Assembly: GCF_019575955.1 (NCBI RefSeq)
Contig: NZ_CP080575.1
Span: forward strand, 1,178,001 to 1,242,000
Reading direction: 5' to 3'
Origin: Nesterenkonia pannonica
GTDB taxonomy: Bacteria > Actinomycetota > Actinomycetes > Actinomycetales > Micrococcaceae
Length of the DNA stretch: 64,000 nucleotides
Position numbers and translations under genes: made by a program
Part shown: positions 43,721 through 64,000 of the stretch, in pieces
How positions within the stretch are numbered: position 1 is the first letter of the stretch
Layout of the letters: each line of letters begins with the position of its first letter
The notes under the pieces: generated by a model
Told to the model about the DNA's origin: nothing
What the model saw: only the letters and a program-made list of their open reading frames with translations
Database searches by the model: none

Positions 43721-44918
43721 CTACGCCCAGCCGGTGTAGCCGTCCGCGAAGTAGGCGCGGCCCTCCGGGGATCCGGTGATCGCATCGAACTCTCCGCGAC
43801 GCCGCCGGTACGCGAACGCGTCGTCGTTCGGCCGGTTGTGCATCAGGGAGGTGGCCCAGTAGGAGAAGTGCTGAGCTTTCCACACCCGGTCCAGAGCGGT
43901 CTGTGAGTACTGCTCCAGGGCGGCTGTGCCTCCGTCCGGCTCTGCGAGGAACTCTTCCACCTTCGGGATGAGCGCCCGGACATCCGTGAAGGCCAGGTTC
44001 AGGCCCTTGGCGCCGGTGGGCGGCACCGTATGGCCCGCATCGCCTGCCAGCACCAGTCGCCCGTAGGTCATCGGCTCGCAGACGTAGGAACGGAAGGGAG
44101 CACATTCTTGCTGATGATGGGTCCGCGCTTCAGCTCCGTGGCGGACCCGAGGACGCTCTGGATGCGATCGAAGATCGCGTCGTCGTCCCAGTCGTCCGGG
44201 TTCGCCTCCGGGTCGCACTGGAAGTACATCCTCTGCACAGTCGCGCTGCGCTGAGAGATCAGGGCGAAGCCGTCCTGGGAGTTCGCGTAGATGAGCTCCG
44301 GCGCCGTGGGAGGGGCCTCGCAGAGAATCCCGAACCATGCGAAGGGATACTCGGTGAAGTAGTCGGTCCGCACATCCTCCGGGATGCTCCTGCGGCACAC
44401 TGAACGTGAGCCGTCGGCTCCGATGATCATCTTGGCCTCGATGCGCCGGGCGCGTCCGTCGCTGTCGGTGAAGTCGATGGCCGGAGTGCTGGTCGTGAGG
44501 CCGCTGACGGCTGTGTCGCTGACCGACCAGTGGACCTCTCCATCCTCCTCCTGCCACGCGCGAGCCAGGTCGGTGAAGACCTCATTCTGCGGGTAGAGCC
44601 ACACCGAACGGCCGACGGCCTCCTTGAGCGGGATGCGCACCTGCGTGCCGTCGAAGCTGAGGATCGTGCCGGTGTGCTCGTGGCCCTCCGTGAGGACGCG
44701 CGAGCCGATGTCAGCCTGGACGAGCATGTCGACCGTGCCCGCCTCCAGGATGCTTAGGCGCGGTGTGTGGTGCGGATCTCCTGCTCGCTGCGCTGCTCGA
44801 TCACAGCAGCGGTGATCCCGCGCCGGGCCAGCAGGATGGCGGACATCAGTCCGGCGGGGCCGCCGCCCACGATGCCCACGTCGACGGTGCTGATATCTTC
44901 GGTTTTCGCAGCAGACAT
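43721..44918 (-). CDS. pobA: 4-hydroxybenzoate 3-monooxygenase
   Basis: FAD enzyme that hydroxylates 4-hydroxybenzoate to protocatechuate with NAD(P)H. The FAD fold is VGIVGGGPAGLMSAILLARR, the second FAD motif LVLAGDAGHTVPPTGAKGLN, and IIGADGSRSVCRRSIPE the DG motif. Frames break near 44100 and at 44752, where the plus strand has GCTTAGGC; restoring GCCGGC gives THRAGILEAGTVDML, the family sequence. Start ATG at 44918. A CCATTGAATGG operator lies about 75 bases upstream. It feeds the pca genes. Confidence 0.93.
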
Positions 44919-44989
44919 GGGACTCCTTGCTGGACGGGGCGCTGACCTGTCCAGTCTCGAGAACAATAGTGACCCGTGCCACATGTGAT

Positions 44990-45000
44990 CCATTCAATGG
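44990..45000 (-). promoter_or_regulatory. Candidate IclR operator upstream of pobA
   Basis: CCATTCAATGG is a perfect odd palindrome, reading CCATTGAATGG towards pobA. ATCACATGTGG follows it on the same strand. The same core recurs at five or six other promoters in the island. Confidence 0.65.
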
Positions 45001-45040
45001 AATGGCGCACGCGGGTGCCCTGTGTGCGGATGGGCCTTGC

Positions 45041-46306
45041 TCAGCGCGGGGTCTCGGCGGCCGCGCGAAGCTCGGGGGTCACGGATTCGCCCGTCTCATC
45101 CCCATGCTCCGGCGCCCTCTGGGGCATCTCGAGCCGGAGCATCAGGCCGCCCCTGCGGCGAGGAGTATGAGCAGTCCGACTCCGGTGCAGAGCGCAGCAG
45201 GGGTCCATCCTGAGTCAAGCAGGCCGCCGACGATGATGGGTGCCAGGATGGCGCCGCACCGACCGACTCCGAGCGCCGCTCCTACTCCCGTGGAACGCAG
45301 GGTGGGGAATAGGTCATGGGCGCCAAGGTGTACAGACCCGAGATGCACCTGTTGACGATCATGCCCAGGCCCACACCGGTGATCAGGGCGAGCGCGTAGA
45401 CGTTGGTCGAGGTGATGAAGACGACGAACATCGTCCCGGACAGGGCGGCGAAGACGGCCAGCACGGCGCGGGGATCCCATGTGGCCGTGCACACGCCGTA
45501 GAGGACTGCCCCCACGGCTCCGCCGAGCATGAGCATCACGCCGCCCATGATCCCCTCCTCGGGGTGAACCCGACCTCGGTGAGCAGCTGCGGCGTCCAGG
45601 TGTTTGCGAAGTAGAAGGCGAACATGACGATGAAGAAGACTGCCCACAGGAACAGGGTGTTCCTCCGATTCTGCGGGGAGAGCAGTGCGGCGTAGGAGCT
45701 GCCGCCCTCCTCAGCGCCGCCCTGGTCGGCGGCGCTGAGGCTCGATGTCGAATCGGCCTGCAGGCCCAGGCCTGCTGCGATGCGCTCTGCGGTCCGCGTC
45801 GGCGCCAAGCGATGCCGCGGCTCTTTGAACAGCCAGAAATTCCAGGGACTCAGGCATGGCCGCGGCGGTGAGCACGATGGCCGCGACGGTCAGGGCGCCG
45901 CCGAGGACGAACACCGACTGCCACCCGAAGCTCTGGATCAGCGGCACGGCCATCAGGCCGCCCATGGTGGCGATGACCGGATACCCGGCCGCGTAGATGC
46001 TCAGCGCCAGCCCTCGATGCTTCGCGTTGGAGTACTCGGATATCAGCACGGTCCCGGAGGCGAGGATGCCCCGACTCCCAGCCCATTGATCACGCGCCAG
46101 AGCATCAGCTCCGGCATGGAGGATGCCGTGGCGGAGAGGAAGAGGCTTGGCGCAGTTGACGATCAGGGCATGTCCTGGGAGACGGCGTTGGCCGTGAATG
46201 CCATCGCCTGCACGTCGTAGCCGTCCAGGCCCATGAGAAAGGTCGCCAGGGCGACGATGAACCACTGATAGCGGCTCATGGGCCGGGCATCGAGCTGCTC
46301 GCGCAT
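45041..46306 (-). CDS. Major facilitator transporter, aromatic acid/H+ symporter type
   Basis: About 420 residues, twelve helices in outline. FIVALATFLMGLDGYDVQAM carries the DGYD motif typical of PcaK/BenK-type aromatic acid carriers; SIYAAGYPVIATMGGLMAVP and GWQSVFVLGGALTVAAIVLT follow. Frames change near 46165, 46075, 45820, 45565 and 45170. Joined, the tail reads LRLEMPQRAPEHGDETGES and ends at 45041. Start ATG at 46306 is the best in frame; ATG at 46323 needs a frame change. Its place upstream of pobA suggests uptake of 4-hydroxybenzoate or protocatechuate. Confidence 0.85.
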
Positions 46307-46349
46307 TGAGGTCGTGCTCGCATTCCTTCTCTGAACGGGGCTGCGGTGT

Positions 46350-46364
46350 GCTGTGAATCACAGC
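46350..46364. promoter_or_regulatory. GCTGTGAATCACAGC palindrome
   Basis: A perfect 15-base palindrome with TGTGA/TCACA arms but a one-base spacer, 43 bases upstream of the MFS start and between it and the divergent IclR gene. The arms match CRP-like half sites; the spacing does not. Confidence 0.5.
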
Positions 46365-46420
46365 CGCAGTGACCGTACTGAGGAGGTGGTACGGGCCACA
46401 AAAGGCGTCCCACGCTGGAT

Positions 46421-46432
46421 CCATTGAATGAG
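46421..46432 (+). promoter_or_regulatory. Candidate IclR operator upstream of the first IclR gene
   Basis: CCATTGAATGAG, matching the pobA and pcaF sites. It lies 66 bases before the IclR start and suggests autoregulation. Confidence 0.55.
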
Positions 46433-46497
46433 ACTCGCGTACGGCCTCGAGGTCTGCGCCCCGTCATACTGGCCATCAGACGATGTGCTGCTGATCA

Positions 46498-47287
46498 TGA
46501 AGGAGGCGCCGCAGCGGATGGCAAACTCGCGCTCAGGCGACGCCCTGCTGGACCGCGTGATGCGCATACTCGGCGCTCTCGAGCGGGACCCTGTCCTGTC
46601 TCCCGGCGAGCTGGCAGAGGCGGCAGAGCTGCCGAGGACCACCGCATACCGGCTGATCACCGACCTCGTCGAGCGCGGGATGCTGGCGCGCACGGCTGTG
46701 GGCGACATCGAGCTGGGCCAGCGGCTGTGGAGATCGCTCAGCACACCGTGCTCTCCCGCACCCTGCGCCACGCTGCCCTGCCCTTCATGCAGGACGTCAA
46801 CTACGTCGTGCAGCAGACCACGCAGCTGGCTGTGCTGGACGGCGCGGATGTGCTGATCGTCGAGCGGCTCTCGCGGCGCGGGGCCGTCTCGAATCCCGCG
46901 GAGGTGGCCAGCCGCATGCCCGTCCACCTCACCTCCATGGGCCACGCTCTCCTCGCCTTCGCCGCACCGGGGCAGATGGACCGGGTGATGAGCGTCCACG
47001 GTGAGCGCATCAGGCGTGAGCGGCCCGAGTTCCTCAGGGAGCTCGGGGAGGCACGGTCGAGGGGTCATTTGAGGCTCGGAGGGCTGATCAACACCGACAC
47101 GGCCGGAGCATCAGTGCCCATTCTGGATGCCCGAGGACATGCCATAGCTGCGCTCACCATCGTGGTGCCCCTCGCGTGGGATCGCCTGCCTCAGGCGCTG
47201 ATGGCGATGCAGACGGCTTCGCGAGGGATCAGCAGAGCCTTGGCGGCTGGGGCCGTCCCCGGCGCATCGGGGCGTCCTGTTGAATGA
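46498..47287 (+). CDS. IclR-family regulator, PcaR/PobR type (paralog 1)
   Basis: Winged-helix N-terminus (LLDRVMRILGALERD, LPRTTAYRLITDLVERGML) and an effector-binding C-terminal domain (VLIVERLSRRGAVSNPAEVA, MPVHLTSMGHALLAFAAPGQ, GLINTDTAGASVPILDARGH). The frame breaks near 46728 within the linker. Start ATG at 46498 is the first Met before the conserved MANSRSGDALLDRV; an ATG at 46428 is also open but overlaps the operator. It sits between the MFS gene and pcaH and is closely similar to the IclR at 61867. Confidence 0.88.
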
Positions 47288-47290
47288 AAA
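47276..47290 (+). promoter_or_regulatory. Weak operator match upstream of pcaH
   Basis: CCTGTTGAATGAAAA overlaps the IclR stop codon and keeps the TTGAATGA core. It lies about 80 bases before the pcaH start. Confidence 0.35.
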
Positions 47291-47370
47291 GGCAGTCGCA
47301 GTGATCCAGCTCACTAACAGAGACTGTCAGCACGATCACCAGCGGCCCTACCAAAGGAGCGGTCAGGCAC

Positions 47371-48172
47371 ATGACGTCGTCCCCAACACCAATCCCGACG
47401 CTGCCGCAGCGACGCAGGATGAGATGACCGCGGAGATCCGCGAGGTCCATAAGGAGTACGAGCACGCACTGGCTCACGGCGGGCCCGAGGAGACAACTGC
47501 TCGGCTGGCCTTCCCGCCCTATCGCAGCTCCCTGCTGCGCCACCCCACCAAGAGCCTCCACCACACCGATCCGGAAGAGATCGAGCTGTGGAGCCCGGCC
47601 TTCGGGGAGCGGGACGTGCATCCCCTGGAAGCCGACCTGACCATTCAGCACAACGGCCAGCCCATCGGTGAGCGGATCATCGTCACCGGACGCGTCGTGG
47701 ACGGTCAGCTTACCGGTGGCCGGGCAACTGATCGAGGTCTGGCAGGCCAATGCTGCCGGGCGGTACATCCACAAGCGCGATCAGCACCCCGCGCCGCTGG
47801 ATCCCAACTTCACCGGAGTGGGGCGGGCCATCACCGGGCCCGACGGCGAATACACCTTCACCACCATCAAGCTTAAGCGCCCTACCCCTGGAAGAACCAC
47901 AACAACGCGTGGCGGCTTACCACATCCACTTCAGCCTGTTCGGCACCGACTTCACCCAGCGCATCATCACCCAGATGTACTTCCCGGGCGATCCGCTGTT
48001 CTCACTGGACCCCATCTATCAGTCCATCGTGGACCAGCAGGCCCGTGACCGACTGGTGGCCTCCTACGACCACTCCGTCTCCCAGCATGAGTGGGCAACG
48101 GGCTACCGCTGGGATATCGTCCTTTCGGGGTCGAACCGCACCTGGACCGAGCCTGAGGAGGGCGATCACTGA
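47371..48172 (+). CDS. pcaH: Protocatechuate 3,4-dioxygenase, beta subunit
   Basis: Iron(III) enzyme that opens the protocatechuate ring to beta-carboxy-cis,cis-muconate. The iron ligands are Tyr in [11 protein letters not shown], Tyr in [11 protein letters not shown] and the His pair in [28 protein letters not shown] is at the N-terminus. ATG at 47371 follows AAAGGAG; a frame change near 47420 is needed. Three altered sites lie here: 47705-47715, GCTTAAGC at 47871 and GCTTAC at 47915. With GCCGGC restored, the two ligand Tyr are 39 residues apart and Tyr to His 13 apart, equal to the spacing in the known enzyme. Confidence 0.93.
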
Positions 48173-48174: not shown

Positions 48175-48769
48175 ATGCAGGACCTCACCCCTACCCCCGC
48201 CCAGACAGTGGGCCCCTTCTACGGGTACGCGCTCCCTTCGAACGGGGCGGTGAGCTCGTGCCGCCCTCTCGGGAGGGATCCATCCGGTTCCACGGCACCG
48301 TGCGCGACGGTGATGGCAAGCCCATCCCTGACGCCCTGATCGAGATCTGGCAGCCCGACGCCTCGGGTTCCATCTCGCGGCAGCCCGGCTCTCTCAAGCG
48401 TGACGGCTACACCTTCACCGGATGGGGCGCACCCCGTGGACGACGCCGGGCACTTCACCTTCACCACCGTCGACCCCGGCCCCACGCGTGAGGGCGGCGC
48501 TCCGTTCATCCTGGTCTGTGTGTTCGCCCGCGGCCTCCTCGACCGGGTCTTCACCCGGGCCTATCTCCCGGAGAGCGATGCATTGGGAGAGGACCCGCTG
48601 CTGAGCAGCGTGGAGGAGTCCCGCCGGGGCACCCTGATCGCCCAGCGGGAGTCCGACGGGGGCTCCTGTTCAACATCACCCTGCAGGGGAGGACGAGACG
48701 GTCTTCCTGTCGTACCCGCAGACTCCGGCCCTGAACGGTCCAGCAGCAGCGGAGCAGAACCGGTCCTGA
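48175..48769 (+). CDS. pcaG: Protocatechuate 3,4-dioxygenase, alpha subunit
   Basis: Partner subunit without iron ligands. TPTPAQTVGPFYGYALPFE, DGDGKPIPDALIEIWQPDAS, GAPFILVCVFARGLLDRVFT and TRAYLPESDALGEDPLLSSV are typical. Frames break near 48235, 48430, 48660 and 48695. Start ATG at 48175, two bases after the pcaH stop. The stop TGA overlaps the pcaB ATG by one base. Confidence 0.92.
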
Positions 48770-50136
48770 TGGCGCCCTCGAGTCTGTTCACCCCGGCGTG
48801 GGCGAACACGCGTGCTGCGGAGACGCTCTCTGAGCAGGCCTTCGTGGACGCGCTGCTCGATGTGGAGGCCGCCTGGGGCGCGGTGCTGGCGGAGCACGGC
48901 TTCGCCGAGCGTTCTGATGCCGAGGAGCTGACTGCGATCTGCGCTGATCGCCGCCAGCTCCCTGCGCTGGCTCCTGAGCAGCTCGCCGAAGCCGCCGCGG
49001 GCGGCGGCAATCCGGTCATTCCGCTGCTGAAGGCTCTGCGCGCCGAGCTCGCGGAGCGGGGCGCAGGGGACTCGGCGCTGCACCGGGGTGCCACCAGCCA
49101 GGACATCCTGGACACCGCTGTTGTCCTGCTCTGTTTACGAGCCGCCCGGCACGCCGTCGAGGACGCACGGGCGGCGGCCGCGTCCTGGCCGATCTGGCCG
49201 AGCGGCATCGGGGCACCCTCTGCACTGCGCACTCTCTGACCCAGCACGCCCTGCCGACCGTCTTCGGCCTCAAAGCGGCTGTCTGGCTGGACGGGATCAG
49301 CTCAGCGGCGGAGACGCTCGCCCACGCTGCGGCATCGCTGCCCCTGCAGTGGGGCGGCGCGGTGGGGACTCAGGCGGCGCTCGTGCAGATCGCAGGCCGA
49401 GGCAAGGCCGCGGAGCTGACGGAGGCGTTGGGGGAACGCCTGGGCCTGAGCGTTCCTGACCTTCCGTGGCACGTGCAGAGGCAGCCCGTCCTGAGCCTGG
49501 CCTCCGCCTTCTCAGGAGTCACTGCGGCGCTGGGCAAGTCCGCTGTGGACGTCCTCACCCTCCAGCGTCCGGAGCTGGGGAGCTGCGCGAGCCCTCTGCC
49601 GCGGGCAGGGGCGGCTCCTCCGCCATGCCGCAGAAGCAGAATCCCGTGCTGGCCACGCTGATCCGCTCCGCATCGCTCGCGGCGCCCGGCCACCTGAGCA
49701 CCCTGCATCAGGCTGCGGCGGCCGCCGATGACGAGCGTCCCGACGGTGCCTGGCATGCGGAGTGGGCTGCCCTGACAGAGCTGGGTCGCATGACCGTCGG
49801 AGCTGCGGATAGAGCCCGAGAGCTCTTCGCCTACCTGATCGTCAACGAGAAGGCGATGGCGGCCAACCTGAGCAGCGCAGGGGATCTTCTGCTGTCCGAA
49901 CGCCTGATGCTCACCATGGGCCAGAGGCTGCCCGGCGGCCGATCCCAGCTGCAGGCCCTGATCCAGGCTGAGGCGGCTTACGCCGGGGAGCTGCGTGCCG
50001 GTCTCATCGAAGCGCTCGGAGATTCCCAGGCCGTCGATGAGGCGCTCGACCCATCCGGATACCTCGGGCGTGCAGACGAGTTCATCGACGCTGCCGCAGA
50101 CGCCCACCGTCGCAGATCAGGAGAGAACCCCTATGA
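48769..50136 (+). CDS. pcaB: 3-carboxy-cis,cis-muconate cycloisomerase
   Basis: Fumarase/aspartase-superfamily enzyme that lactonises carboxymuconate. ALHRGATSQDILDTAVVLL and the signature GRGGSSAMPQKQNPVLATL are clear, with SLPLQWGGAVGTQAALVQIA between. Frames break near 49185, 49575 and 50125. Joined, it ends SGENPL with the stop overlapping the pcaD start (ATGA). Start ATG at 48769. Confidence 0.92.
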
Positions 50137-50925
50137 GCCTGTCCCTGACCCCCAGCCTGCTCACGCCGGAGGCAGAGGGCCCTCGCCCTCCTGATGGTCG
50201 GCCCTCGCTGGGCACCTCGGTGACGGCCCTCTGGGGCCCTGCCCTGCCCTTCCTGGCCGATCGCTTCACGGTGGTGGGCTGGGATCTGCCGGGGCACGGC
50301 AGCTCGGCTGCGCACCCGGGGCCCTTCAGCCTGTCGAACCTGGCGTCCGCAGTGGTTCGCGCGGCTGATCATGCAGCAGCTGAGCACGGTGCCGTCGACG
50401 CTGCCCTCCCGCGGTTTCACGCCGGCTGTGTCGATCGCAGGAGCCGTCAGCCTGACCCTCGCAGTCGATCACCCCGGCACGTTCCGCAGCCTGGCGGTCC
50501 TGTGCTCGGCAGCCAAGCTCGGAACCCCGAAGGATGGCGCGAACGAGCGGACCTCGTCGCCCAGGCGGGGACTCCGACCATGGTTGAGGGCTCCGCCAAA
50601 CGCTGGTTCGCACCGGGCTTCCTGGAGAAGCACCCCGAACGGGTCACCCCGCTGCTGCATGCGCTGCAGCAGACAGACCGCCACTCCTACGCAGCAGCCT
50701 GCCGGGCACTGGCCGACTACGACCTGACCGAACGCCTGGGCGAGGCGTCAGACCCCATCCTCGCCCTCGCCGGCGAGGAGGACACGGTCTGCCCCCGGCT
50801 GATGCGGACACCATCGCCGAGGGCGTGCCGGAAGGGCGCGCCGTCACCCTTCGAGGAGTTGCCCACCAGGCCCCACGGAGGACCCCGAGAACACTGCCGA
50901 GATGCTGAAGGACTTCTTCTCATGA
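50133..50925 (+). CDS. pcaD: 3-oxoadipate enol-lactonase
   Basis: Alpha/beta hydrolase that opens the enol-lactone. FTVVGWDLPGHGSSAAHPGP, the nucleophile region FHAGVSIAGAVSLTLAVDHP (after removing one extra T near 50416), LALAGEEDTVCPPADADTIA and the His in RGVAHQAPTEDPENTAEML. Frames change near 50195, 50415, 50535, 50800 and 50870. It is a separate gene from pcaC, although fused PcaL forms are known in actinobacteria; the ATGA overlap is the remnant boundary. Confidence 0.88.
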
Positions 50926-51344
50926 CCAGCCCCGAACAGCACGAGCCGCGCACCGGCGAGCAGATCTACGCCGATGGAATGGCTGTTCGTCGCGAAGTCC
51001 TCGGCGACGAGCACGTCGACCGGGCCACCGCCGCCTCCGACGCGTTCACCGAAGAGTTCCAGTCCATGATCACCCGGCACGCCTGGGGCACCATCTGGAC
51101 CCGGCCGGGGCTCGACCGCAGATCACGCTCCATCATCACCCTCACCGCCCTCATCTCGGGCGGCTACTGGCACGAGCTCGAGATGCACGTCCGAGCCGCG
51201 CGCCGCAACGGTCTCGAAGCGGAGGAGATCAAGGAAGTCTTTCTCCAAGCAGCCATCTACTGCTCCGTCCCCGCCGCCAACGTGGCCTTCGGCATCGGCC
51301 AGCGCGTCCTTGCCGAGGAAGCCGCCGGAGACGAGAGCGCCTAG
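50922..51344 (+). CDS. pcaC: 4-carboxymuconolactone decarboxylase
   Basis: Decarboxylates carboxymuconolactone to 3-oxoadipate enol-lactone. One unbroken frame of 140 residues: GMAVRREVLGDEHVDRATAA, FTEEFQSMITRHAWGTIWTR, LDRRSRSIITLTALISGGYW, and ELEMHVRAARRNGLEAEEIK with EVFLQAAIYCSVPAANVAFG. The catalytic Glu, Arg and His residues of the family are all present. Start ATG at 50922 overlaps the pcaD stop. Fifth in the pcaHGBDC operon. Confidence 0.95.
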   Translation: MTSPEQHEPRTGEQIYADGMAVRREVLGDEHVDRATAASDAFTEEFQSMITRHAWGTIWTRPGLDRRSRSIITLTALISGGYWHELEMHVRAARRNGLEAEEIKEVFLQAAIYCSVPAANVAFGIGQRVLAEEAAGDESA

Positions 51345-51396
51345 CACGACACCGCAGTCCGATTCGCCCTCCCGTTCGTAGGAAAGGACCACCGTC

Positions 51397-52843
51397 ATGA
51401 CTCTGCTCAACCCCGACATCTGGTCAGGAAAGCTCTTCACCGGCAGCTGGAGCTCTTCAGGCGAGACAGGCACTGCCACAGATCCAGCCACACAGGCCGA
51501 GCTCGGCAGCTGGGGCATGCCTTCCGCAGACGATGTGCGCGCCTCAGCTCAGAGTGCCGCCCGAGCCCAGCGTGACTGGGCCGCTCGTCCGCCGTCCGAG
51601 AGGGCCGCGGTGCTTCGGAAGGCCGGCATGCTCTTCGAGGAGCACGCCGCTGAGATCGAACAGTGGATTGTTCAGGAGTCGGGCGCTATTGCGCCCAAGG
51701 CTCAGCTGGAGACGCACATCGCGGCGGAGGAGTGCTACGAGGCCTCCGCATTGGGGAGATGCCCCATTGGGGAGATGCTGTCCACGGACAAGCCTCACTG
51801 GTCCATCGCTCGACGCAGGGCGGCTGGAGTCGTGAGCGTCATCGCTCCCTTCAACTTCCCTGATCCTGTCCATCCGCGCCGTGGCGCCTGCTCTGGCCCT
51901 GGGCAACGCCGTGCTGCTGAAGCCGGATCCGCGCACCGCAGTCTGCGGCGGCGTGGTGCTGGCCCGCATCTTCGAGGAGGCGGGGCTGCCCGAAGGGCTG
52001 CTGCACCTGCTGCCAGGCGGAGCCGAAATCGGTCAGGCCACGATCACGGCCCCGAGACGCGAGTGGTGGCCTTCACCGGCTCCACGCCCGCAGGCCGGAA
52101 GATCGGCGCCCTCTGCGCCGAGCACCTCAAGCGAGCCCATCTGGAGCTCGGGGGCAACAACGCCATGGTGGTCCTCCCGGCGCGGACATCGAGAAGGCCG
52201 TCTCAGCTGCCGCATTCGGATCGTTCATGCACCAGGGCAGATCTGTATGACCACCGGCCGCCACATCATCCACGAGGACATCTACGACGAATACGCATCA
52301 GCCCTGGCCGAGAAGGCCGACGGAATCATGGTCGGCAGGCCTTCCGACTCAGGAGTGATGATGGGGCCGATCATCGACGAGAACCAGCTCAAGAGGGTCG
52401 ACTCCATCGTCCAGGACGGGCTCGTTCAGGGCGCCCAGCTGCTGGTTACGGCACGCATGACGGCCTGTTCTACCGACCGACGGTGCTGGGCAACGTGGCC
52501 TCCGACAACCCCGCTTGGAGCGACGAGATCTTCGGCCCCGTCGCACCCTGGCCCCGGTGTCATCCGTCGAGGAGGCTGTTCGTCTGGCCAACGATTCGCA
52601 GTTCGGGCTCTCGCTGTCGGTGCTGGGCCCCGTCAGCGAGGCCATCGCTGTGGCGGACGCCTTCGACTCCGGAATCGTGCACATCAACGAGTCCACGGTG
52701 GCCGACGAAGCCACGGCTCCATTCGGAGGGACCAAGGACTCCGGCAACGGCTCCCGCCACGGGGTGCGGCTGCGAACATCGAAGCCTTCACAGAGACGCA
52801 GTGGCTCACGGTGTCCGGGAACATCCCTCCGTACCCGTTCTGA
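51397..52843 (+). CDS. Aldehyde dehydrogenase, vanillin/benzaldehyde type
   Basis: NAD(P)-dependent oxidation of an aromatic aldehyde. Cofactor segments VVSVIAPFNFPLILSIRAVA and VVAFTGSTPAGRKIG, the general base in LELGGNNAMVVLPGADIE, the catalytic Cys in FMHQGQICMTTGRHI and the C-terminal EIFGPVAPVAPVSSVEEAVR. Frames break near 51867, 52055, 52185, 52445, 52545 and 52770. At 52445 the DNA reads GGTTACGG where LLAGGTHDGLFYRPT needs GGCCGGCGG. Start ATG at 51397 with AGGAAAGGACC upstream. Vanillin is my inferred substrate, because a LigM demethylase is in the same island. Confidence 0.85.
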
Positions 52844-52852: not shown

Positions 52853-52887
52853 TTCCATTGAATGAGAGACCTTGCGACTGTGACACA
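52853..52887 (+). promoter_or_regulatory. Paired operator upstream of pcaF
   Basis: TTCCATTGAATGAG (52853-52866) and, 12 bases later, TGTGACACA (52879-52887). The pcaF start is at 52911. Same two elements as upstream of the ABC permease gene at 56822. Confidence 0.6.
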
Positions 52888-52910: not shown

Positions 52911-54116
52911 ATGACTGACGCGTTTGTTTTTGATGGTGTGCGCACTCCTTTCGGCAAGGTGGGCGGGGCGCTGTCCGGGGTGCGTCCGGATGATCTCGCG
53001 GAGGTGGTGATCAGCGAGCTGCTGGCCCGTGCTCCGGGTGTCTCCGGTGAGGACGCCACGATGTGGTCGGTGAGGTGATCTTCGGCAACGCCAATGGTGC
53101 GGGTGAGGAGAACCGCAATGTGGGGCGAATGGCGTGGCTGCTGGCTGGGGTTCGACCTCGGTGCCTGCCAGCACGGTGAACCGGCTGTGCGGCTCCTCGA
53201 TGGACGCCGCGATTCAGGCTGCCCGTCAGGTGAGGCTCGAAGAGACCGATGTGGTGCTGGTCGGGGTGTGGAGTCGATGTCTCGAGCGCCGTGGGTGCTG
53301 CCGAAGACGGAGCGTCCGTTCCCCATGAAGAACCTTGAGCTGGTGAACACCGCGCTCGGGTGGCGGCTGATCAATGAGCGGATGCCTGCGGAGTGGACGG
53401 TCTCGTTGGGTGAGGCCACTGAGCAGCTTCGGGAGAAGTACGGGGTCTCTCGGATCCGTCAGGACGAGTTCGCCGCCCGGTCCCACCGCCTCGCGCTGGA
53501 GGCTTGGGATGCTGGAAAGTATGAGGGACTGACCGTGGAGGTTCCCGGTGCGGATCTGACCCGGGACGAGACCCTGCGGCAGGGCGTCAGTGCTGAGTCG
53601 CTGGCGAATCTGTCTCCGGTGTTCCGCAAGGAGGGCGGCACGGTGACGGCCGGGAATGCGTCACCGCTGAATGATGGGGCGTCGGCTGCGTGGATCGGGT
53701 CCCGGGCCGCATGGGGAGAGGCTGGGCCTGAAGCCTCAGGCTCGCATCGTTTACTGGGGCGCGGCTGCCAACGAGCCCCAGTTCTTCGGCTATGCGCCTG
53801 TCGAGGCCTCGAACAGGGCGTTGGAGCACGCCACCTGACGTGGGACCGTGTCGACGCTGTGGAGCTGAATGAGGCGTTCGCTGCTCAATCTGTGGCGTGC
53901 ATCGATGCGTGGGGGATCGACCCTGAGATCGTCAATGCGTGGGGCGGAGCGGTGGCGATCGGGCATCCGCTGGGCGCTTCGGGGACCCGGTGCTTGTCGA
54001 CGTTGGCGGCCCGCATGCAGGCTGACGGGCAGCGGTGGGGTGTAGCGACACTGTGCATCGGTGTGGGGCAGGGCCTGGCTGTTGTTCTTGAGAACGTCGA
54101 CGCGGAAGGGGAGTGA
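52911..54116 (+). CDS. pcaF: 3-oxoadipyl-CoA thiolase
   Basis: Splits 3-oxoadipyl-CoA into succinyl-CoA and acetyl-CoA. The acyl Cys is in [39 protein letters not shown] is the NEAF motif, [20 protein letters not shown] has the catalytic His and [17 protein letters not shown] the second Cys. Frames break near 53065, 53155, 53270, 53710 and 53820. Start ATG at 52911. Codons here use more T-ending forms (GTTTTTGATGGTGTG) than the pcaHGBDC genes. Confidence 0.93.
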
Positions 54117-54119
54117 GGC

Positions 54120-54827
54120 ATGTCGGTGAATATTGCGGCTGACCCTGCTGAGGCTGTGGCTGGAGTCGGTGATGGGGCGACGGTGCTTCTGGGTGGGTTC
54201 GGCAATGCTGGGCAGGCTCATGAGCTGATTGATGCGCTGCTGGACTCTGGCGCTAAGGAGTTGACGGTGGTGAGCAACAATGCCGGTCAGGGTGATGCGG
54301 GGTTGGCGCTGCTGGTCAAGGAGTCCCGGGTGGGGAAGATCATCTGTTCGTTTCCGCGGCAGTCGGATTCGTGGCATTTCGATGAGGCCTACCGGGCTGG
54401 TCGGATTGAGCTGGAGCTTGTGCCTCAGGGCAATCTGGCTGAGCGGCTGCGCGCAGCGGGTGCGGGCATTGGGGCTTTCTTCACTCCCACCGGTTACGGA
54501 ACCACGTTGGCCGAGGGCAAGGAGGTCCGGGAGATTCAGGGCCGGAACTACGTGCTGGAGTACCCGTTGGGCGGTGATGTGGCGCTGATCAAAGCGCTGG
54601 CAGCTGATGAGGTGGGGAATCTGGTGTATCGCAAGACGGCCCGGAATTTCGGTCCGGTGATGGCTGCTGCGGCAGCGCGCACGGTGGTTCAGGTGGAGCA
54701 GGTTCTGCTTACTGGGTCCATCGACCCGGAGTCGGTGGTCACGCCGGGGCTGTATGTGGACACTGTGGTGGAGGTGCCCACCGCGTCCGGTGAGGCTGCG
54801 AGCAGGGAAGGAAGACTCCAAGGATGA
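54120..54827 (+). CDS. pcaI: 3-oxoadipate CoA-transferase, alpha subunit
   Basis: Transfers CoA from succinyl-CoA to 3-oxoadipate. Unbroken, 235 residues: VGDGATVLLGGFGNAGQAHE, LTVVSNNAGQGDAGLALLVK, GTTLAEGKEVREIQGRNYVL and ALIKALAADEVGNLVYRKTA. GCTTAC at 54707 encodes Leu-Thr in VLLTGSIDPE; the family has Pro-Ala there, as GCCGGC would give. Start ATG at 54120, three bases after pcaF. The stop overlaps the pcaJ start. Confidence 0.95.
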   Translation: MSVNIAADPAEAVAGVGDGATVLLGGFGNAGQAHELIDALLDSGAKELTVVSNNAGQGDAGLALLVKESRVGKIICSFPRQSDSWHFDEAYRAGRIELELVPQGNLAERLRAAGAGIGAFFTPTGYGTTLAEGKEVREIQGRNYVLEYPLGGDVALIKALAADEVGNLVYRKTARNFGPVMAAAAARTVVQVEQVLLTGSIDPESVVTPGLYVDTVVEVPTASGEAASREGRLQG

Positions 54828-55475
54828 TCACCGCACGATATGACGAGAAGCTCTCACGGCAGCAGTTGGCGCAGTTGGTGGCGGCTGATATTCCGGCGGG
54901 TTCGTATGTGAATCTGGGGATCGGTCAGCCTACGACGGTGTCGGATTATCTGACTCCGGAGCAGGGGGTGACTCTGCATACCGAGAATGGGATGTTGGGG
55001 ATGGGCCCGGCGGCTCAGGGGATGAGGTCGATGGTGATCTGATCAATGCGGGCAAGATCCCGGTCACGGAGCTGCCGGGGACCAGCTATTTCCATCATGC
55101 TGATTCCTTCGCGATGATGCGCGGGGGCACCTGGACGTCTGTGTGCTGGGTGCTTTCCAGGTCTCTGCTGGTGGGGATCTGGCCAATTGGTCCACTGGTG
55201 CCCCGGATGCGATTCCGGCGGTGGGCGGTGCGATGGATCTGGCGATCGGGGCTAAGGATGTGTTTGTGATGATGAGCCTCTTCGCCAAGGACGGCACGGC
55301 GAAGATCGTTCCGCAGCTGGGGTATCCGGCGACGGGGCTGGGGTGTGTGAGTCGGGTCTATACCGATCATGGTGTCTTCCACATCGAAGACGGTGGGGTC
55401 AGGCTGCGTCAGGCCTACGGTCTCAGCGCCGAGGAGATCCAGGATCGTCTGGACTTCGAGCTGCTCACCGACTGA
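54824..55475 (+). CDS. pcaJ: 3-oxoadipate CoA-transferase, beta subunit
   Basis: Catalytic partner of Pca[21 protein letters not shown], the Glu in [35 protein letters not shown] and [20 protein letters not shown] are typical. Frames break near 55030 and 55130. Start ATG at 54824. The end overlaps the end of the convergent MFS gene by a few bases. Confidence 0.93.
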
Positions 55476-56672
55476 CCCCTGCCCGAACAGACGCACATCC
55501 CGTCCGGTCCACATTCCCATCGCGGTGTACACCGCAATGACCCCCAGGCTCAGCAGCAGAGGCACTGTCCAGGTGCCGCTGACCTGGAAGAGGTATCCGG
55601 CCGCGAGGGGCTGCGCCGCCGATGACGTAGCCCACTCCTTGGGCCATGCCTGAGAGCTCGTTTACCTGCTGCGGCCCCGCCGCGCGCAGGCTGATCATCG
55701 TCAGCGCCAGGAGCAGAGAGCTGGCCGAGAAGAAGCCGCTCACGACGGCCCACAGCAGCATCAGCTCCGGCAGCAGCACCATCCCTAAGCTGCCGAGAGC
55801 CATTCCTACGCCCGTGACCCCACCACCAGTCGGTGGTCGCGGGTTCTCTGCAGAATCCGAGAGATCAGCAGCATCGCCGCAATGCCCGTCGCCTGATAGA
55901 TCCCCACTCCCAGTCCCGCCGTTACGGCGCTGAACCCGTGGTACGTGTGGATGGCGGCAAGCCACGTCAGGAAGAAGTAGAACATCGCTGACTGGAATCC
56001 GAAGAAGATCATGACTCCCCAGGCCAGGGGTGAGGACCACACGGAGCGGGATGAGCCCCCGCGCCCCGTGCTGCTGCTGTCGACGGCCTCACTGGGCCCG
56101 CTGCGGCTCTGGCGCCACCCCAGAGGAGCGCAGCGAGAAGCGAGAGAGCAGCTGCTGCTGCCAGGGCAAGTTCCCAGTTCAGCGCGCCGGACAGCGGGAC
56201 GGCCGTGCTTGAGGCGAGTGCGGCCACACCGGTCATCACCGCCGTGTAGGCGCCCGTCATCACCGGCACCCGATCCGGGAAGTCCCTGCGCACCACTGCT
56301 GGGAGCACCACGTTGAGGACCGCCACGGCCGCAGAGAGGATGAGCGTGCCGAGGAACAGCGGCACCGCCTCGCCCCCGCGGATCTGGCGACAGTGCCCAG
56401 CGTCAGCACGGTCAGGGCGGCAAGCACGGTGCGGTCCATGCCCCACCGCCGAGACAGCAGGTGGACGAAGGGGAGACGAGGGCGAAGGTGAAGACCGGCA
56501 GTGCACCCAGCGCCCCGAGGGCGGTGGGCCCTGCGCCCGTCTCATCTCCGATGGTCTCCAGCAGCGGCCCGACGGCGCTGATGGCGGGCCGCAGGTTTGC
56601 CGCGGCCACGAAGACGAGAGTCGCAAGTGCAAGGTGTGATGATGCTCTGCTCCCTGACAACAGCCCCTCCAT
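55465..56672 (-). CDS. Major facilitator transporter, CynX/NimT-like
   Basis: About 400 residues with twelve hydrophobic segments. The start MEGLLSGSRASSHLALATLV then AAANLRPAISAVGPLLETIG is the typical CynX/YycB opening; TGAYTAVMTGVAALASSTAV, FQSAMFYFFLTWLAAIHTYH and LALTMISLRAAGPQQVNELS follow. Frames change near 56470, 56385, 56110, 55830, 55625 and 55510, and the C-terminus is not firm. Start ATG at 56672. It is divergent from the ABC permease gene, sharing the operator region at 56726. The substrate is unknown; location suggests an aromatic or a product of its breakdown. Confidence 0.75.
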
Positions 56673-56725
56673 ATATGTGGCGTAGGCCACAGTCTTGTGG
56701 AGAGGCTGCCGTCCGGCCCTGTGAG

Positions 56726-56772
56726 TCCCACTGAATGAGTCCGTGCCAAGCAGAACTGTGCCCTGTGTCACA
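56726..56772 (+). promoter_or_regulatory. Paired operator upstream of the ABC importer genes
   Basis: TCCCACTGAATGAG (56726-56739) and TGTGTCACA (56764-56772), the reverse complement of the TGTGACACA found upstream of pcaF. Both lie in the 149-base region between the divergent MFS and permease genes. Confidence 0.6.
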
Positions 56773-56821: not shown

Positions 56822-57637
56822 GTGGCACCCGAAACATCATCCCGGCGAAGGCCGACCTCTGGTCGGTCCTGGGGCTCGCCCGTTCTGGGCCTCACCGGGA
56901 TCCTGGCCTTCCTGGCGATCTGGGAACTGTTTCCCAGACTAGGCCTCGCTGACAGCCGCTATCTGCCTCCCGCCAGCGAAGTGCTGATGACAGCGGCGGG
57001 CAATCTGGCCGACCTCGGCTTCTGGGCCTCCGTCGGCGTGACGATGCAGGCCTGGGCGATAGGCCTCTTCATCGCCACGGCAGTAAGCACCATTCTCGGC
57101 CTCGTGATCGGCATGAGCAGCTTCCTGCGCCGCTACACCCACTCGACCATCGAGTTCCTGCGGCCCATCCCTTCCGTGGCACTGATCCCATTGGCGGTGC
57201 TGCTCTTCGGCATCGGCCTGGACTCCGCTCTGCTGCTCATCGTCTACGCCTGCTTCTGGCAGGTCCTGATTCAGGTCCTCTACGGGGTCGGCGACATCGA
57301 CACGGTGGCGATGAACACCGCACAGTCCTACCGGTTCAGCTACTGGCAGCGCATCCGTGACGTCGTCATCCCGACGATGCTTCCCTATCTGATGACCGGA
57401 CTGCGGCTGGCCGCGGCTGTCGCACTGATCCTCGCGATCACCGCTGGCCTGGTGATCGGCACCCCGGGGCTGGGCAGCGACATCGCGCTGTCGCAGCAGG
57501 GAGGTGCCATCACCAACATGTACGCCCTCATCCTGGCGACGGGGGCACTGGGCGTCGTGATCAACTTCGGTGCACGTCTCGTGGAGCGCCGCGTCCTGTC
57601 ATGGCACACATCCGTCCGAGGGGAGCTCGCATCATGA
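56822..57637 (+). CDS. ABC transporter permease, SsuC/TauC type (1)
   Basis: Six-helix permease, unbroken, 271 residues. The N-terminus is basic; helices include LTGILAFLAIWELFPRLG and AIGLFIATAVSTILGLVIGM, and the EAA loop region is NTAQSYRFSYWQRIRDVVIP. GTAAGC at 57083 encodes Val-Ser in ATAVSTILG; GCCGGC would give Ala-Gly, common there. Start GTG at 56822 behind AGGAGG. The stop overlaps the next start. The family moves nitrate, sulfonates, taurine and aromatic acids such as phthalate. Confidence 0.88.
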   Translation: MAPETSSRRRPTSGRSWGSPVLGLTGILAFLAIWELFPRLGLADSRYLPPASEVLMTAAGNLADLGFWASVGVTMQAWAIGLFIATAVSTILGLVIGMSSFLRRYTHSTIEFLRPIPSVALIPLAVLLFGIGLDSALLLIVYACFWQVLIQVLYGVGDIDTVAMNTAQSYRFSYWQRIRDVVIPTMLPYLMTGLRLAAAVALILAITAGLVIGTPGLGSDIALSQQGGAITNMYALILATGALGVVINFGARLVERRVLSWHTSVRGELAS

Positions 57638-58410
57638 GAATCTTCAAGCGCTATATCTCGCCGGTCCTGGCGCTCTTTGCCCTTCCGGTGCTGCTGATCG
57701 CGGCGTGGTGGGCGTACGCCACCACCAGCCCGAGCTTCTTCGTGCCCGAGCCCATTCCGCTCGCTGAGACGTTCGTCGACACCTGGATCACCGGCGAGCG
57801 TCTCACCCGGGATGTCCTTCCCAGCCTCCAGCGACTCCTCATCGGCCTGGCCCTCGCCCTGATCCTCGGGGTGGTGCTCGGACTGCTCATCGGTCTCAAC
57901 CGCGTGATCCGGCAGCTCACCGAGCCCGTGTTCGAGTTCTTCCGGGCCCTTCCCCGCCGGTGCTGATCCCCGTCCTGATGCTCCTCATCGGAGTCGGCGC
58001 CCCCATGCAGGTCGCGGTGATCGTCTCGGGCTGCATCTGGCCGATCCTCCTCAACACCATCGAGGGCGTCCGGGCCATCGACCCCGTCCAGTCCGAAACA
58101 TCACGCAGCTACGGACTGAGCGGCTTCAACCGTGTCAGGTACCAGCTGCTTCCGGCGGCCGCCCCAACGATCATGGCCGGTGTTCGCCAGAGCCTGTCGA
58201 TCGGCCTGATCCTCATGGTCATCTCCGAGATGTTCGCCACGTCCTCCGGACTCGGATTCACCATTGTGCAGTTCCAGCGCTCCTTCGCGATCTCCGAGAT
58301 GTGGTCCGGGATCGTAGTCCTGGGACTCATCGGCGTGACCCTGTCCTTCATCTTCCGATTTGTAGAGCAGCGCCTCCTGCGCTGGTACCACGGCCTGAAA
58401 GAGGTAGAAA

Positions 58411-58421
<11 letters not shown>
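57634..58421 (+). CDS. ABC transporter permease, SsuC/TauC type (2)
   Basis: Second permease of the importer. Helices at VLALFALPVLLIAAWWAYAT and LIGLALALILGVVLGLLIGL, the loop FEFFRALPPPVLIPVLMLLI (broken near 57955 by a lost C), and the EAA-like loop SETSRSYGLSGFNRVRYQLL. Start ATG at 57634 overlaps the previous stop; the end overlaps the ATPase start by 11 bases. Two different permeases imply a heterodimeric channel. Confidence 0.88.
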
Positions 58422-61771
<3,350 letters not shown>

Positions 61772-61799: not shown

Positions 61800-61861
61800 T
61801 GTGAGTCATATCACACTCGCTGATCTCGTCCGCGGAGCAAAATCGGGTCCCATCCAATGGG
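61800..61861 (-). promoter_or_regulatory. CRP-like site and operator upstream of the binding-protein gene
   Basis: TGTGAGTCATATCACA (61800-61815) is an exact TGTGA-N6-TCACA dyad, 29 bases upstream of the start. CCCATCCAATGGG (61849-61861) is an odd palindrome like the operator upstream of pobA. Confidence 0.65.
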
Positions 61862-61866
61862 CTGAT

Positions 61867-62641
61867 CTACGCAGCGGCAGCTGCGGCGGGTCGTGACGGA
61901 GGAAGGTGATAGGACCGCAGGTGCTTGAGATGCTCCGCGCCGCTGCCTGCAGCGAGCTCACGTAGAGGCCGAGCTTCGAATCGTCGCTCGGGACCACCAG
62001 CGTCAGTGCGGCCACCGCGCTGGCATGCTCATCGATCACGGGTGCGGAGATTCCCATCGTGCCGGTGTGGATGGCCTCGTTGATGCGTGAGAATCCGCGT
62101 CTGCGTGTATCGGCAAGCTCCGAGCGCAGCTGCGGGCGCTCGGAGGCGATGCGGTGCTGCTGCTGCCGGATGACTGACTCGGCGGTCTCTCGGGGGAGTA
62201 GGCGAGCAGCACGTGCCCCATGGAGGTCAGGTGGACTGGCATGTGAGTGCCCACTTCCGCGGGGTTGGTGACGGCGCCGGTGCGAGACAGGCGTTCGACG
62301 ATCAGCACCTGAGCGTCCTCGAGGACGGCGAGCTGTACGGTCTGCCCGACGAGGCTGTTGAGCTCCTGCATCTGGGGCAGGGCGGCCTGGCGAAGCATGG
62401 CTGCCAGGGGGTGTGCTGCGCCATGCCCCAGATCCGCCTGCCCAGGGTCACCTCGCCCCGGGCGTCCCGCTGGAGGAGCCCCCTGCGCGCCAGATCATCG
62501 ATCAGACGGTATGCGGTGCTCTTGGGGAGCCCGGTCTGGCGGGCCAGCTGCCCGGCAGGCAGGTGCTGCTCCATCTCCACGATGCTGAGTATGCGCATGA
62601 CGCGGTCGAGGACAGCTTCGCCTGAGGCTGAGTTCGCCATT
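61867..62641 (-). CDS. IclR-family regulator (paralog 2)
   Basis: Same family and close in sequence to the regulator at 46498: EAVLDRVMRILSIVEMEQHL, GLPKSTAYRLIDDLARRGLL, VLIVERLSRTGAVTNPAEVG and MPVHLTSMGHVLLAYSPE. Frames break near 62415, 62195, 62055 and 61935; after the last, the C-terminus reads HLPPSRPAAAAA and stops at 61867. Start ATG at 62641 (MANSASGEA) matches the paralog; GTG at 62673 is an alternative. It lies between the binding-protein gene and metF and probably controls the demethylation genes. Confidence 0.85.
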
Positions 62642-62685
62642 TCTTCGTCCTTCCGCTGAGGGGTGCTGGTCACGCTCCCTCATAG

Positions 62686-62701
62686 TGTGATACGAGTCAC
62701 A
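62686..62701. promoter_or_regulatory. CRP-like site in the iclR-metF region
   Basis: TGTGATACGAGTCACA, an exact TGTGA-N6-TCACA dyad, 45 bases upstream of the ATG of the second IclR gene. Confidence 0.6.
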
Positions 62702-62737
62702 GACACCGCCAAACTATGCGGCCAAATGGTCGCGTTA

Positions 62738-62806
62738 TCCCGGTGAATGGGAGAAACTCTGACGGAGGCGACGAGTGAGGGCATCATCTGTGTGATGCAG
62801 GGCACA
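62738..62806 (+). promoter_or_regulatory. Paired operator upstream of metF
   Basis: TCCCGGTGAATGGGAG (62738-62753) resembles the IclR-type operator. TGTGATGCAGGGCACA (62791-62806) is a CRP-like dyad with one mismatch, 32 bases before the metF start. Confidence 0.5.
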
Positions 62807-62838
62807 CAAGTCCCGCTCAAGGGTAGAAGGAGTGTTTG

Positions 62839-63696
62839 ATGGCACGATCACTGGCGACGAACGAGGACGAGCGGCGCACGCTTCACACCCTGGCGCACAA
62901 TCTCAGCTACGAAGTGATGCCGTTCAAGACGGCGGTGGAGAAGGTGCGGGCCCACGTACCCACAGAGGTCCCGCTCACTGTCACCGCCACCGGGGCAAAG
63001 GCCTCGAGCCCACGCTGGACGTCTCCGCGCAGCTGGCCGGAAGCGGCTATTCCGTGGCACCCCACGTGCCGGCGAGGCTGGTCTCCGGACCCGACGAGCT
63101 CAACACCATCGTCGAGCGGCTCGAGGCGGCCGGAATCGATCGCCTCTTCGTCATCGGCGGCGACGCTGAGGAGCCTGCGGGGAGTTCCACGAGGCTCTCG
63201 ACCTGCTCCGAGCGCTCGACGAGAGAGGTCACCACTTCGTCGACATCGGCATCGGCGGCTACCCGAGGGACACGCCTTCTTCGACGATGCGGTGATCGGC
63301 GAAGCCCTGCGCCGAAAGGCCGCGCACTCCCACAGGATCCTGACGCAGATCTGCTTCGACCCCGACGCCTACATCAAGTGGGGCACCCAGCTGCGGCAGG
63401 AGGGCGTGGATCTTCCCGTCTACGCCGGTGTGCCCGGTCCCGTGAGCCGCCAGAAGCTGATGCGCATCTCGGCCAGCCTCGGGCTGGGACCCTCGGCAAA
63501 CTTCCTCAAGAAGCAGCAGAACATGCTCTGGAAGTTCTTCACCCTCCGGATACCGGCCGACGGCGCTTCTGCGGGGCTGGTGCAGAAGCTGCACACCGCG
63601 GACACCCGCATCGCCGGTCTCCACATCTACACGTTCAATGATCTCGAGCGGACCGAGGCGTGGCGGCAGGAGCTGCTCGCACAGGCCCGCGGCTGA
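62839..63696 (+). CDS. metF: Methylenetetrahydrofolate reductase
   Basis: FAD enzyme interconverting 5,10-methylene-THF and 5-methyl-THF; here it probably runs in the oxidising direction to recycle the methyl group taken by LigM. Strands LSYEVMPFKTAVEKVRAHVP, VPLTVTATGGKGLEPTLDVS, IDRLFVIGGDAEEPAGEFHE, ILTQICFDPDAYIKWGTQLR and VDLPVYAGVPGPVSRQKLMR follow the barrel order. Frames break near 63000, 63180 and 63272. Start ATG at 62839. The stop lies 30 bases before purU. Confidence 0.88.
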   Translation: MARSLATNEDERRTLHTLAHNLSYEVMPFKTAVEKVRAHVPTEVPLTVTATGAKASSPRWTSPRSWPEAAIPWHPTCRRGWSPDPTSSTPSSSGSRRPESIASSSSAATLRSLRGVPRGSRPAPSARRERSPLRRHRHRRLPEGHAFFDDAVIGEALRRKAAHSHRILTQICFDPDAYIKWGTQLRQEGVDLPVYAGVPGPVSRQKLMRISASLGLGPSANFLKKQQNMLWKFFTLRIPADGASAGLVQKLHTADTRIAGLHIYTFNDLERTEAWRQELLAQARG

Positions 63697-63726
63697 TCTC
63701 GGCACCATCGTCAAAGGAATCCTGAT

Positions 63727-64000
63727 ATGACAGAAGCGTCCCCCGTGAGAGTTCGGCACCCTGGCGATGGTCCAGGCGGCCTCAGACCCGTCCCTGCAGG
63801 ACGTCGGCCGCCTCATCGTCCAGGGCACGGACAGCCCTGGGCTCGTCGCAGCGATCAGCGGCACCCTGGCCGAGCACGGAGCCAACATCGCAAGTCTCGA
63901 CCAGCACACCTCGGACCCCAGCGGCGGACGCTTCTTCCAGCGCACCGTCTTCACCCTGGACAGCCTCTCGGCTCATGCTCCGCAGCTGCGGGAGGCACTG
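63727..64000 (+). CDS. purU: Formyltetrahydrofolate deformylase, N-terminal part (cut by window end)
   Basis: Hydrolyses 10-formyl-THF to THF and formate. Only the ACT domain is in the window: GRLIVQGTDSPGLVAAISGT, LAEHGANIASLDQHTSDPSG and GRFFQRTVFTLDSLSAHAPQ. The catalytic formyltransferase domain lies beyond 64000. ATG at 63727 follows AAAGGA; a frame change near 63755 is needed. Placed after ligM and metF, it would release THF and close the C1 cycle. Confidence 0.82.
   Translation, partial: MTEASPVRVRHPGDGPGGLRPVPAGRRPPHRPGHGQPWARRSDQRHPGRARSQHRKSRPAHLGPQRRTLLPAHRLHPGQPLGSCSAAAGGT

Follow-up and report, generated by a model that had tools for sequence, protein, structure and literature searches.

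A predicted LigM-type vanillate demethylation island with a linked importer in Nesterenkonia pannonica

The stretch of Nesterenkonia pannonica DNA analyzed here (the window; 64,000 nucleotides, C1:1178001-1242000 of a single contig of 2.70 Mb with a completeness of 62%) carries in its last 20 kb an island of genes for aromatic compounds that includes ligM. Judged from gene content, the island very probably encodes oxygen-independent demethylation of vanillate by LigM, fed by an ATP-binding cassette (ABC) importer and leading into the pca genes, with tetrahydrofolate (THF) recycled by MetF, FolD and PurU. In the proposed pathway, vanillate or a similar methoxylated phenolic acid would be imported, LigM would shift its methyl group to THF, giving protocatechuate and 5-methyl-THF, and protocatechuate would pass to PcaHG, PcaB, PcaC, PcaD, PcaIJ and PcaF. 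The 5-methyl-THF would return to THF via MetF, PurU and a FolD encoded at another place in the genome, with release of formate, and the pob/pca and LigM genes could be switched together by IclR-type regulators through a common operator.

Reading frames were traced by a codon model permitting frame switches, and the proteins were compared with NCBIfam and Pfam (hmmscan). An earlier note on this DNA had listed pobA, a PcaK-type carrier, pcaHGBDC, an aldehyde dehydrogenase (ALDH), pcaFIJ, an importer, ligM, metF and purU, all of which were recovered, the carrier as an AAHS-type major facilitator superfamily (MFS) protein and purU by its start. Two IclR regulators, a CynX-type MFS transporter and the extent of purU past the window were added to that list, and the note's central proposal, a LigM linked to MetF, PurU and an importer and feeding the pca genes, is borne out by gene content and co-occurrence.

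LigM and its folate partners

The ligM gene (59283..60686, +), predicted to encode a THF-dependent vanillate/3-O-methylgallate O-demethylase, was traced with two frame switches. By sequence its product is a genuine LigM, as the earlier note had proposed, exceeding the NF047885 cut-off of 580 with 903 bits, staying under the cut-off of the DesA model NF047633 (628 versus 800) and sharing 68.1% identity over 461 amino acids with LigM of Sphingobium sp. SYK-6 (PDB 5x1i). The window motif VGSRTYSSN aligns with VGSRAYPSN of 5x1i, retaining a tyrosine that we take to be the catalytic Tyr247. Identity as DmdA, sarcosine oxidase or GcvT was rejected (41 versus 410, 49 versus 1164 for soxA, and 87 versus 300 bits, respectively), all three scores lying far under their cut-offs; DmdA and sarcosine-type demethylases were the competitors raised in the earlier note.

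Phylogeny also places the window protein with SYK-6 LigM. A tree of 47 sequences (130 LigM-like rows thinned at 86% identity; quick search with SH-aLRT support and no bootstrap) holds both in a 36-row set (support, 100), within which 32 actinobacterial rows form one set (99), sister to three sphingomonad rows including SYK-6 (90). Outside these fall one sequence from Rhizobium and the DesA-like rows; the latter (L179_4362 and L012_7616) score below both the LigM and DesA cut-offs and stand in a tree without SYK-6 DesA itself. Recent acquisition from sphingomonads was rejected, as actinobacterial LigM forms a separate set. Among named LigM sequences, Nesterenkonia supplies the three nearest (83-86% identity). 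Two further proteins (L109 13218 and L024 6669), 50-53% identical to window LigM, make up a separate LigM-related branch.

The neighboring metF (62839..63696, +), for which oxidation of 5-methyl-THF is proposed, is divergent. It matches PF02219 (54 bits; cut-off, 24), and a canonical MetF beside ligM was rejected because it scores only 65 bits on TIGR00676 (cut-off, 294) and is closer to PDB 7xg9 (E 6e-26) than to E. coli MetF (1b5t; E 1e-7); a literature search on the origin of 7xg9 gave no matches. Next to it, purU (63729..64000, +), for a formyl-THF deformylase, runs ~640 bases past the window end and is followed by rplY. PurU proteins hydrolyze 10-formyl-THF to formate.

A scan of contigs found at least 583 stretches encoding LigM relatives, the best 80 of which are called ligM loci here. 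A member of the MetF-family cluster occurs in 74 of them (73 within 6 kb) and one of the PurU cluster in 51 (50 within 6 kb); two MetF subfamilies, ~29% identical to each other, accompany ligM. Among genomes G000 to G099, MetF lies ≤5 kb from LigM (center to center) in all 26 genomes with LigM, and a MetF match was found in 14 of the 74 others. A PadR-like regulator (named by reading) is found ≤6 kb from ligM in 51 of the 80 loci, and a similar-looking one adjoins VanA in one family genome (G042).

A second LigM operon in the same genome, missed by the earlier note, has the order metF2-purU2-folD-ligM2-SBP2 (L102 6188-10861, in C1:2316000-2331000; names from sequence reading and similarity), and FolD is encoded at two places in the genome. 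LigM2 (C1:2323 kb) is 62% identical to window LigM, belongs to a separate subclade and scores 755 on NF047885 as X-joined pieces; a second paralogue was present within the fetched stretch in 17 of the 80 loci. In this genome, PF02219 has no matches beyond metF and metF2, both divergent. Across the genus, any methylenetetrahydrofolate reductase match was obtained in 16 of 30 genomes and a canonical MetF score (~200 bits) in three, the rest having a divergent MetF or none, which bears on methionine supply. In another region of the genome (L103, C1:1315000-1326000), Rieske oxygenase, reductase and dimethylglycine-dehydrogenase-like genes were named by reading and perhaps serve glycine betaine demethylation.

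LigM is common in the Micrococcaceae: among 295 genomes of this Genome Taxonomy Database (GTDB) family, 79 have a protein over the cut-off, as do six of 23 in the genus (G295 to G301 were left out of the LigM search). Of the 80 best loci, 79 bear actinobacterial record titles and one belongs to Sphingosinicella. The view in the earlier note that a LigM route would be unusual in an actinobacterium is thus not upheld, and such or related genes are already in print. A LigM-type gene is reported from a Micromonosporaceae metagenome-assembled genome, with DesA-like genes in, among others, Solirubrobacterales (PMC9296663), and a LigM-like gene from Arthrobacter GBD-1, alongside the actinobacterial demethylenases BrdA and SesA (PMC5547118). 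In a paper of 2022, the THF-dependent demethylase genes reported until then are counted as four, all from sphingomonads (PMC9404685). A literature search that mostly left subscription journals out of its scope found no vanillate assay of an actinobacterial LigM, and one on LigM in Nesterenkonia or Arthrobacter led nowhere.

A VanA encoded elsewhere, raised in the earlier note as an alternative means of growth on vanillate, was not found: VanA_C has no match in the genome. Within the genus, VanA_C was detected in seven of 30 genomes; the six of these searched for LigM all lack it, and the seventh (G295) lay outside that search, so that among 23 genomes LigM occurs in six, VanA in six and both in none. 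Among G000 to G099, by contrast, VanA is present in 12 of 26 genomes with LigM versus 13 of 74 others, more co-occurrence than expected, and a general mutual exclusion of LigM and VanA was rejected despite the zero overlap in the genus.

The linked importer and its association with LigM and VanA

Directly before ligM lie genes for two importer permeases of the SsuC/TauC type (56822..57637 and 57635..58421, both +) and an ATPase (58411..59256, +), all identified by hmmscan; the substrate-binding lipoprotein, of the SsuA/NMT1 family, is encoded on the opposite strand (60680..61771, -). The latter matches PF09084 (102 bits) and reaches 124.5 bits on TIGR01728, below the cut-off of 163.5 for SsuA aliphatic sulfonate binding proteins.

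Homologues of permease 1 (E 1e-45) and of the binding protein (E 1e-40) were found in 96 and 95 of 290 genomes, respectively. Permease 1 is present in 67 of 79 genomes with LigM versus 29 of 211 others, and the binding protein in 67 of 79 versus 28 of 211 (Fisher ~1e-30 for each, uncorrected for kinship). These counts assume that the 290 genomes are a subset of the 295 searched for LigM, 174 and 175 of the genomes without a match being missing from the respective lists and G290 being counted as having none. At ≥305 bits, the 57 binding-protein rows come from 55 genomes, each of which has LigM, and 32 rows lie ≤3 kb from it; distances here and below were taken from part of the listed rows, 91 for the permease and 57 for the binding protein.

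The importer also accompanies VanA. In six genus genomes without LigM, permease 1 is ~12 kb from VanA, and among the 23 genus genomes every one that has LigM or VanA (12) carries a permease 1 of ≥60% identity, and the 11 that have neither lack one; this cut was chosen after the rows had been seen, and at a looser one G253 (43% permease) makes one of 11. In G042, a VanA-type oxygenase gene (PF19112, 157 bits; below the NCBIfam VanA cut-offs) with an adjoining reductase gene is clustered with the importer, an acyl-CoA ligase, two binding proteins and an amidohydrolase (Pfam), as well as MaoC-like, acyl-CoA dehydrogenase, SDR and MarR genes (by reading). In the 21 kb fetched from Nesterenkonia halophila, homologues (49-75%) of the G042 ligase, MaoC-like, dehydrogenase, amidohydrolase, SDR, MarR and importer genes occur together with a LigM 86% identical to that of the window, and the G042 VanA gives no match there. 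Three further Micrococcaceae loci (G075, G074 and G029) combine importer, acyl-CoA ligase and VanA.

These arrangements raise the possibility, which we hold tentatively and at somewhat less than even odds, that a Micrococcaceae ABC importer dedicated to methoxylated phenolic acids serves both VanA and LigM, which would have displaced each other in otherwise similar clusters. The LigM form would recycle THF via a specialized MetF, FolD and PurU rather than LigH, and in the window it would have come under the pca regulon through a paralogous IclR and an operator of the CCATTGAATG type common to both gene sets. The LigM core is ordinary, being common in the family; the importer linkage, the exchange between LigM and VanA, PurU in place of LigH and possibly the shared operator are the interesting part and seem new. 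The linked importer and the LigM/VanA exchange look undescribed, and no title or abstract opening among the matches listed in a literature search names the importer.

Demethylation is a recognized bottleneck in biological lignin use, and LigM needs no O2 but does need folate recycling. When LigM was put in place of VanAB in Pseudomonas putida KT2440, growth on vanillate is reported to have needed MetF, LigH and a host mutation (PMC12997858). A natural set of LigM, MetF, PurU and importer in Gram-positive hosts is a supply of parts, VanA versus LigM in similar clusters offers a natural comparison of when cells prefer either chemistry, and an importer predicted for methoxylated acids makes binding directly testable.

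Island genes, putative operators and genomic setting

The pob/pca part of the island begins with pobA, for 4-hydroxybenzoate 3-monooxygenase (43721..44930, -; NF006091, 452 bits; cut-off, 351), followed by a PcaK-like aromatic acid/H+ symporter gene of the AAHS MFS type (45100..46320, -), whose scores on TIGR00895 (231 versus a cut-off of 418) and the PcaK equivalog NF053517 (140 versus 770) are those of a sequence broken by several frameshifts. Protocatechuate 3,4-dioxygenase is encoded by pcaH (beta subunit; 47370..48172, +; TIGR02422, 282 bits versus 296) and pcaG (alpha subunit; 48176..48770, +; TIGR02423, 161 bits; cut-off, 126). The next gene (48770..50135, +) was assigned by context as pcaB, for 3-carboxymuconate cycloisomerase; a nitrosuccinate lyase model slightly outscores TIGR02426 (299 bits versus a cut-off of 356), and all models fall under cut-off. 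The genes pcaD (3-oxoadipate enol-lactonase; 50134..50922, +; TIGR02427, 168 bits versus 256) and pcaC (4-carboxymuconolactone decarboxylase; 50923..51345, +; TIGR02425, 167 bits; cut-off, 156) precede one for an aromatic aldehyde dehydrogenase of the benzaldehyde/4-hydroxybenzaldehyde/vanillin type (51397..52842, +; PDB matches 3r64, 9jw2 and 9ihb), which is 59% identical to an ALDH ~5 kb from ligM in Nesterenkonia cremea. There follow pcaF (3-oxoadipyl-CoA thiolase; 52913..54117, +; top thiolase model NF006551, 385 bits versus 605) and the genes for 3-oxoacid CoA-transferase subunits A and B, pcaI (54120..54830, +; TIGR02429, 338 bits; cut-off, 128.5) and pcaJ (54825..55478, +; TIGR02428, 246.5 bits; cut-off, 243.6). 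A CynX/NimT-type MFS transporter gene (55440..56740, -; TIGR00896, 258 bits versus 406) has homologues (51-54%) that also adjoin ligM in N. halophila and N. cremea. Several island proteins thus resemble their family yet score below the NCBI curated cut-off, perhaps partly through frameshift loss.

Two regulators are encoded, the PcaR/PcaU/PobR-like IclR1 (46490..47290, +; TIGR02431, 83 bits versus 285) and IclR2 (61850..62671, -), 52% identical to it by sequence comparison. The window has three exact copies of CCATTGAATG, the 10-base core of putative IclR operators in noncoding DNA: TTCCATTGAATGGATC before pobA (44987..45002, -), ATCCATTGAATGAGAC between pcaK and iclR1 (46419..46434, +) and TTCCATTGAATGAGAG before pcaF (52853..52868, +). 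A 14-base pattern with ≤3 mismatches gave 11 matches versus 4.3 expected, the largest shuffle giving 10. Three operator-like sites in the LigM block were first spotted by eye. A position weight matrix (PWM) trained on the three window pca/pob sites plus three in G228 and G276, and excluding the LigM-block sites, was then used to scan ~128,000 positions. It ranks TCCCACTGAATGAGTC before the importer-ligM genes (56726..56741, +) fifth in the window (score, 17.3), GCCCATTGGATGGGAC before the binding protein gene (61847..61862, -) eighth (13.2) and the weak site TCCCGGTGAATGGGAG between iclR2 and metF (62738..62753, +) twelfth (11.1), all in noncoding promoter gaps. Three hits in coding DNA, which are taken as chance, reach 12.8, 11.8 and 11.3, so that the first two sites alone stand out and the third, weak one lies within chance hits. 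Evidence for conservation of the operator across relatives is weak, since the hits before importer, binding-protein or ALDH genes in N. halophila (7417 and 5011) and N. cremea (18248 and 6176), with scores of 10.7-19.7, overlap those in other ligM loci (up to 11.7 in L105/L107, 12.9 in L102 and up to 16.0 in L109-L110).

The pobA/pca island and LigM module sit between the core genes prs and rplY, with glmU and prs upstream and the remainder of purU, rplY and pth past the window end (glmU, prs, rplY and pth were named by sequence reading, without a library search). Among 28 rplY loci of relatives, full-length prs lies ≤1.5 kb from rplY in eight and pcaJ in nine, eight of these with pcaI, and LigM, MetF, PurU, ABC and binding-protein genes have no match in any. 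Of the window genes, the gap in G228, the nearest relative judged by rplY, contains only pobA, pcaK and iclR1, and LigM is absent from the gap in longer stretches of nine relatives, that of G276 stopping short of prs. Judging by the rplY loci and G228, the set of aromatic genes between prs and rplY varies among these genomes, and the LigM block (pcaJ to rplY) is an addition in N. pannonica.

Competing readings and known systems

Several observations weigh against LigM-dependent vanillate use as read from the island. Genes for pca enzymes were matched near ligM in only two of the 80 loci (L012 and L071), so a single-locus pathway is rare; a PurU cluster member was not found in 29, so PurU is not an obligatory neighbor; and few of the 91 permease 1 rows are close to a LigM (seven within 3 kb, 18 within 10 kb and 23 within 20 kb). 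LigM may not be responsible for vanillate in every case, because VanA and LigM often coexist outside the genus, and in a Kocuria strain ferulate is reported to have induced vanAB but not three further annotated O-demethylase genes (PMC12343579). Activity data for these proteins were not found in the literature searched, and the window sequence contains frameshifts, including in ligM, metF and pcaK. That the LigM region is decaying and non-functional is nevertheless barely credible, the rest of the window being similarly broken (1.74 frameshifts per coding kb in 1-43700 versus 2.17 in 43700-64000, with many genes split); this similarity and the completeness of 62% make assembly error the likely cause.

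Other substrates have to be considered at both the enzyme and the importer. Window LigM could have a different methoxylated ring as its main substrate (3-O-methylgallate, isovanillate or a veratrate-type acid), leaving vanillate to LigM2, as the two paralogues in separate subclades, the second paralogues at other loci and the activity of Novosphingobium LigM on both vanillate and 3-O-methylgallate (PMC8091115) would allow. This seems unlikely, since the island feeds protocatechuate genes, no gallate genes were seen in it, and the N. halophila LigM stands in a hydroxycinnamate-type cluster at the place of VanA in G042. The importer itself may take up vanillate, ferulate or both. That it carries ferulate or another hydroxycinnamate instead of vanillate is doubtful but deserves serious weight: the acyl-CoA ligase, MaoC-like hydratase, SDR and amidohydrolase genes with it in G042 and N. 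halophila, and the ligase in G075, G074 and G029, make up a cluster resembling the hydroxycinnamate region of Agrobacterium (PMC7797058), whereas a search covering the window found no hydroxycinnamate-gene homologues there, and in G232 the binding protein lies between ligM and metF. Transport of sulfonates, taurine or nitrate by an importer placed here by chance is quite improbable. Its best NCBIfam and PDB matches are of SsuA/TauA/SaoX types, though under every curated cut-off, and permease 1 is often distant from ligM (>300 kb in G066, G261 and G269), but the importer is concentrated in genomes with LigM, before correction for kinship, its closest binding proteins all occur with LigM, often beside it, and it accompanies VanA where LigM is missing.

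The methyl group might alternatively feed chiefly one-carbon metabolism (methionine and other folate products), with MetF and PurU venting the surplus. PurU, which takes 10-formyl-THF to formate, is an outlet rather than a supply, and the second operon again has PurU and FolD, making this reading rather unlikely; in its favor are the scarcity of canonical MetF in the genus, its absence from the PF02219 matches in N. pannonica, and the description of C1-folates from the SYK-6 LigM route as needed for biosynthesis (PMC6888825).

VanAB would give the same product, and in relatives it has the same importer and a similar cluster context; unlike LigM, it is an O2-requiring Rieske oxygenase, and its VanA was not found in the N. 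pannonica genome. On plasmid pRop44186_a of Rhodococcus opacus (L179), LigM, metF, purU, folD and a DesA-like protein also occur together, but that cluster goes with genes for a class III extradiol dioxygenase and for a CHA-type aldolase; the plasmid was typed as mobilizable. Novosphingobium aromaticivorans has redundant THF-dependent O-demethylases, LigM and DesA (PMC8091115), but is an alphaproteobacterium with a different ring-opening route. Agrobacterium fabrum likewise carries a THF-dependent vanillate demethylase and MetF (Atu1420/Atu1418) in its hydroxycinnamate region, with the product passing to pca genes, whereas control there is by the GntR family, the phylum differs and PurU is unmentioned in the parts of the source covered (PMC7797058). 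In the ligM-metF-ligH operon of Sphingobium sp. SYK-6, an orthologous LigM linked to MetF converts vanillate to protocatechuate; the SYK-6 operon relies on LigH, a formyl-THF synthetase, and 4,5-cleavage of protocatechuate (PMC6888825), whereas N. pannonica has PurU in the window, FolD in its second operon and genes for 3,4-cleavage.

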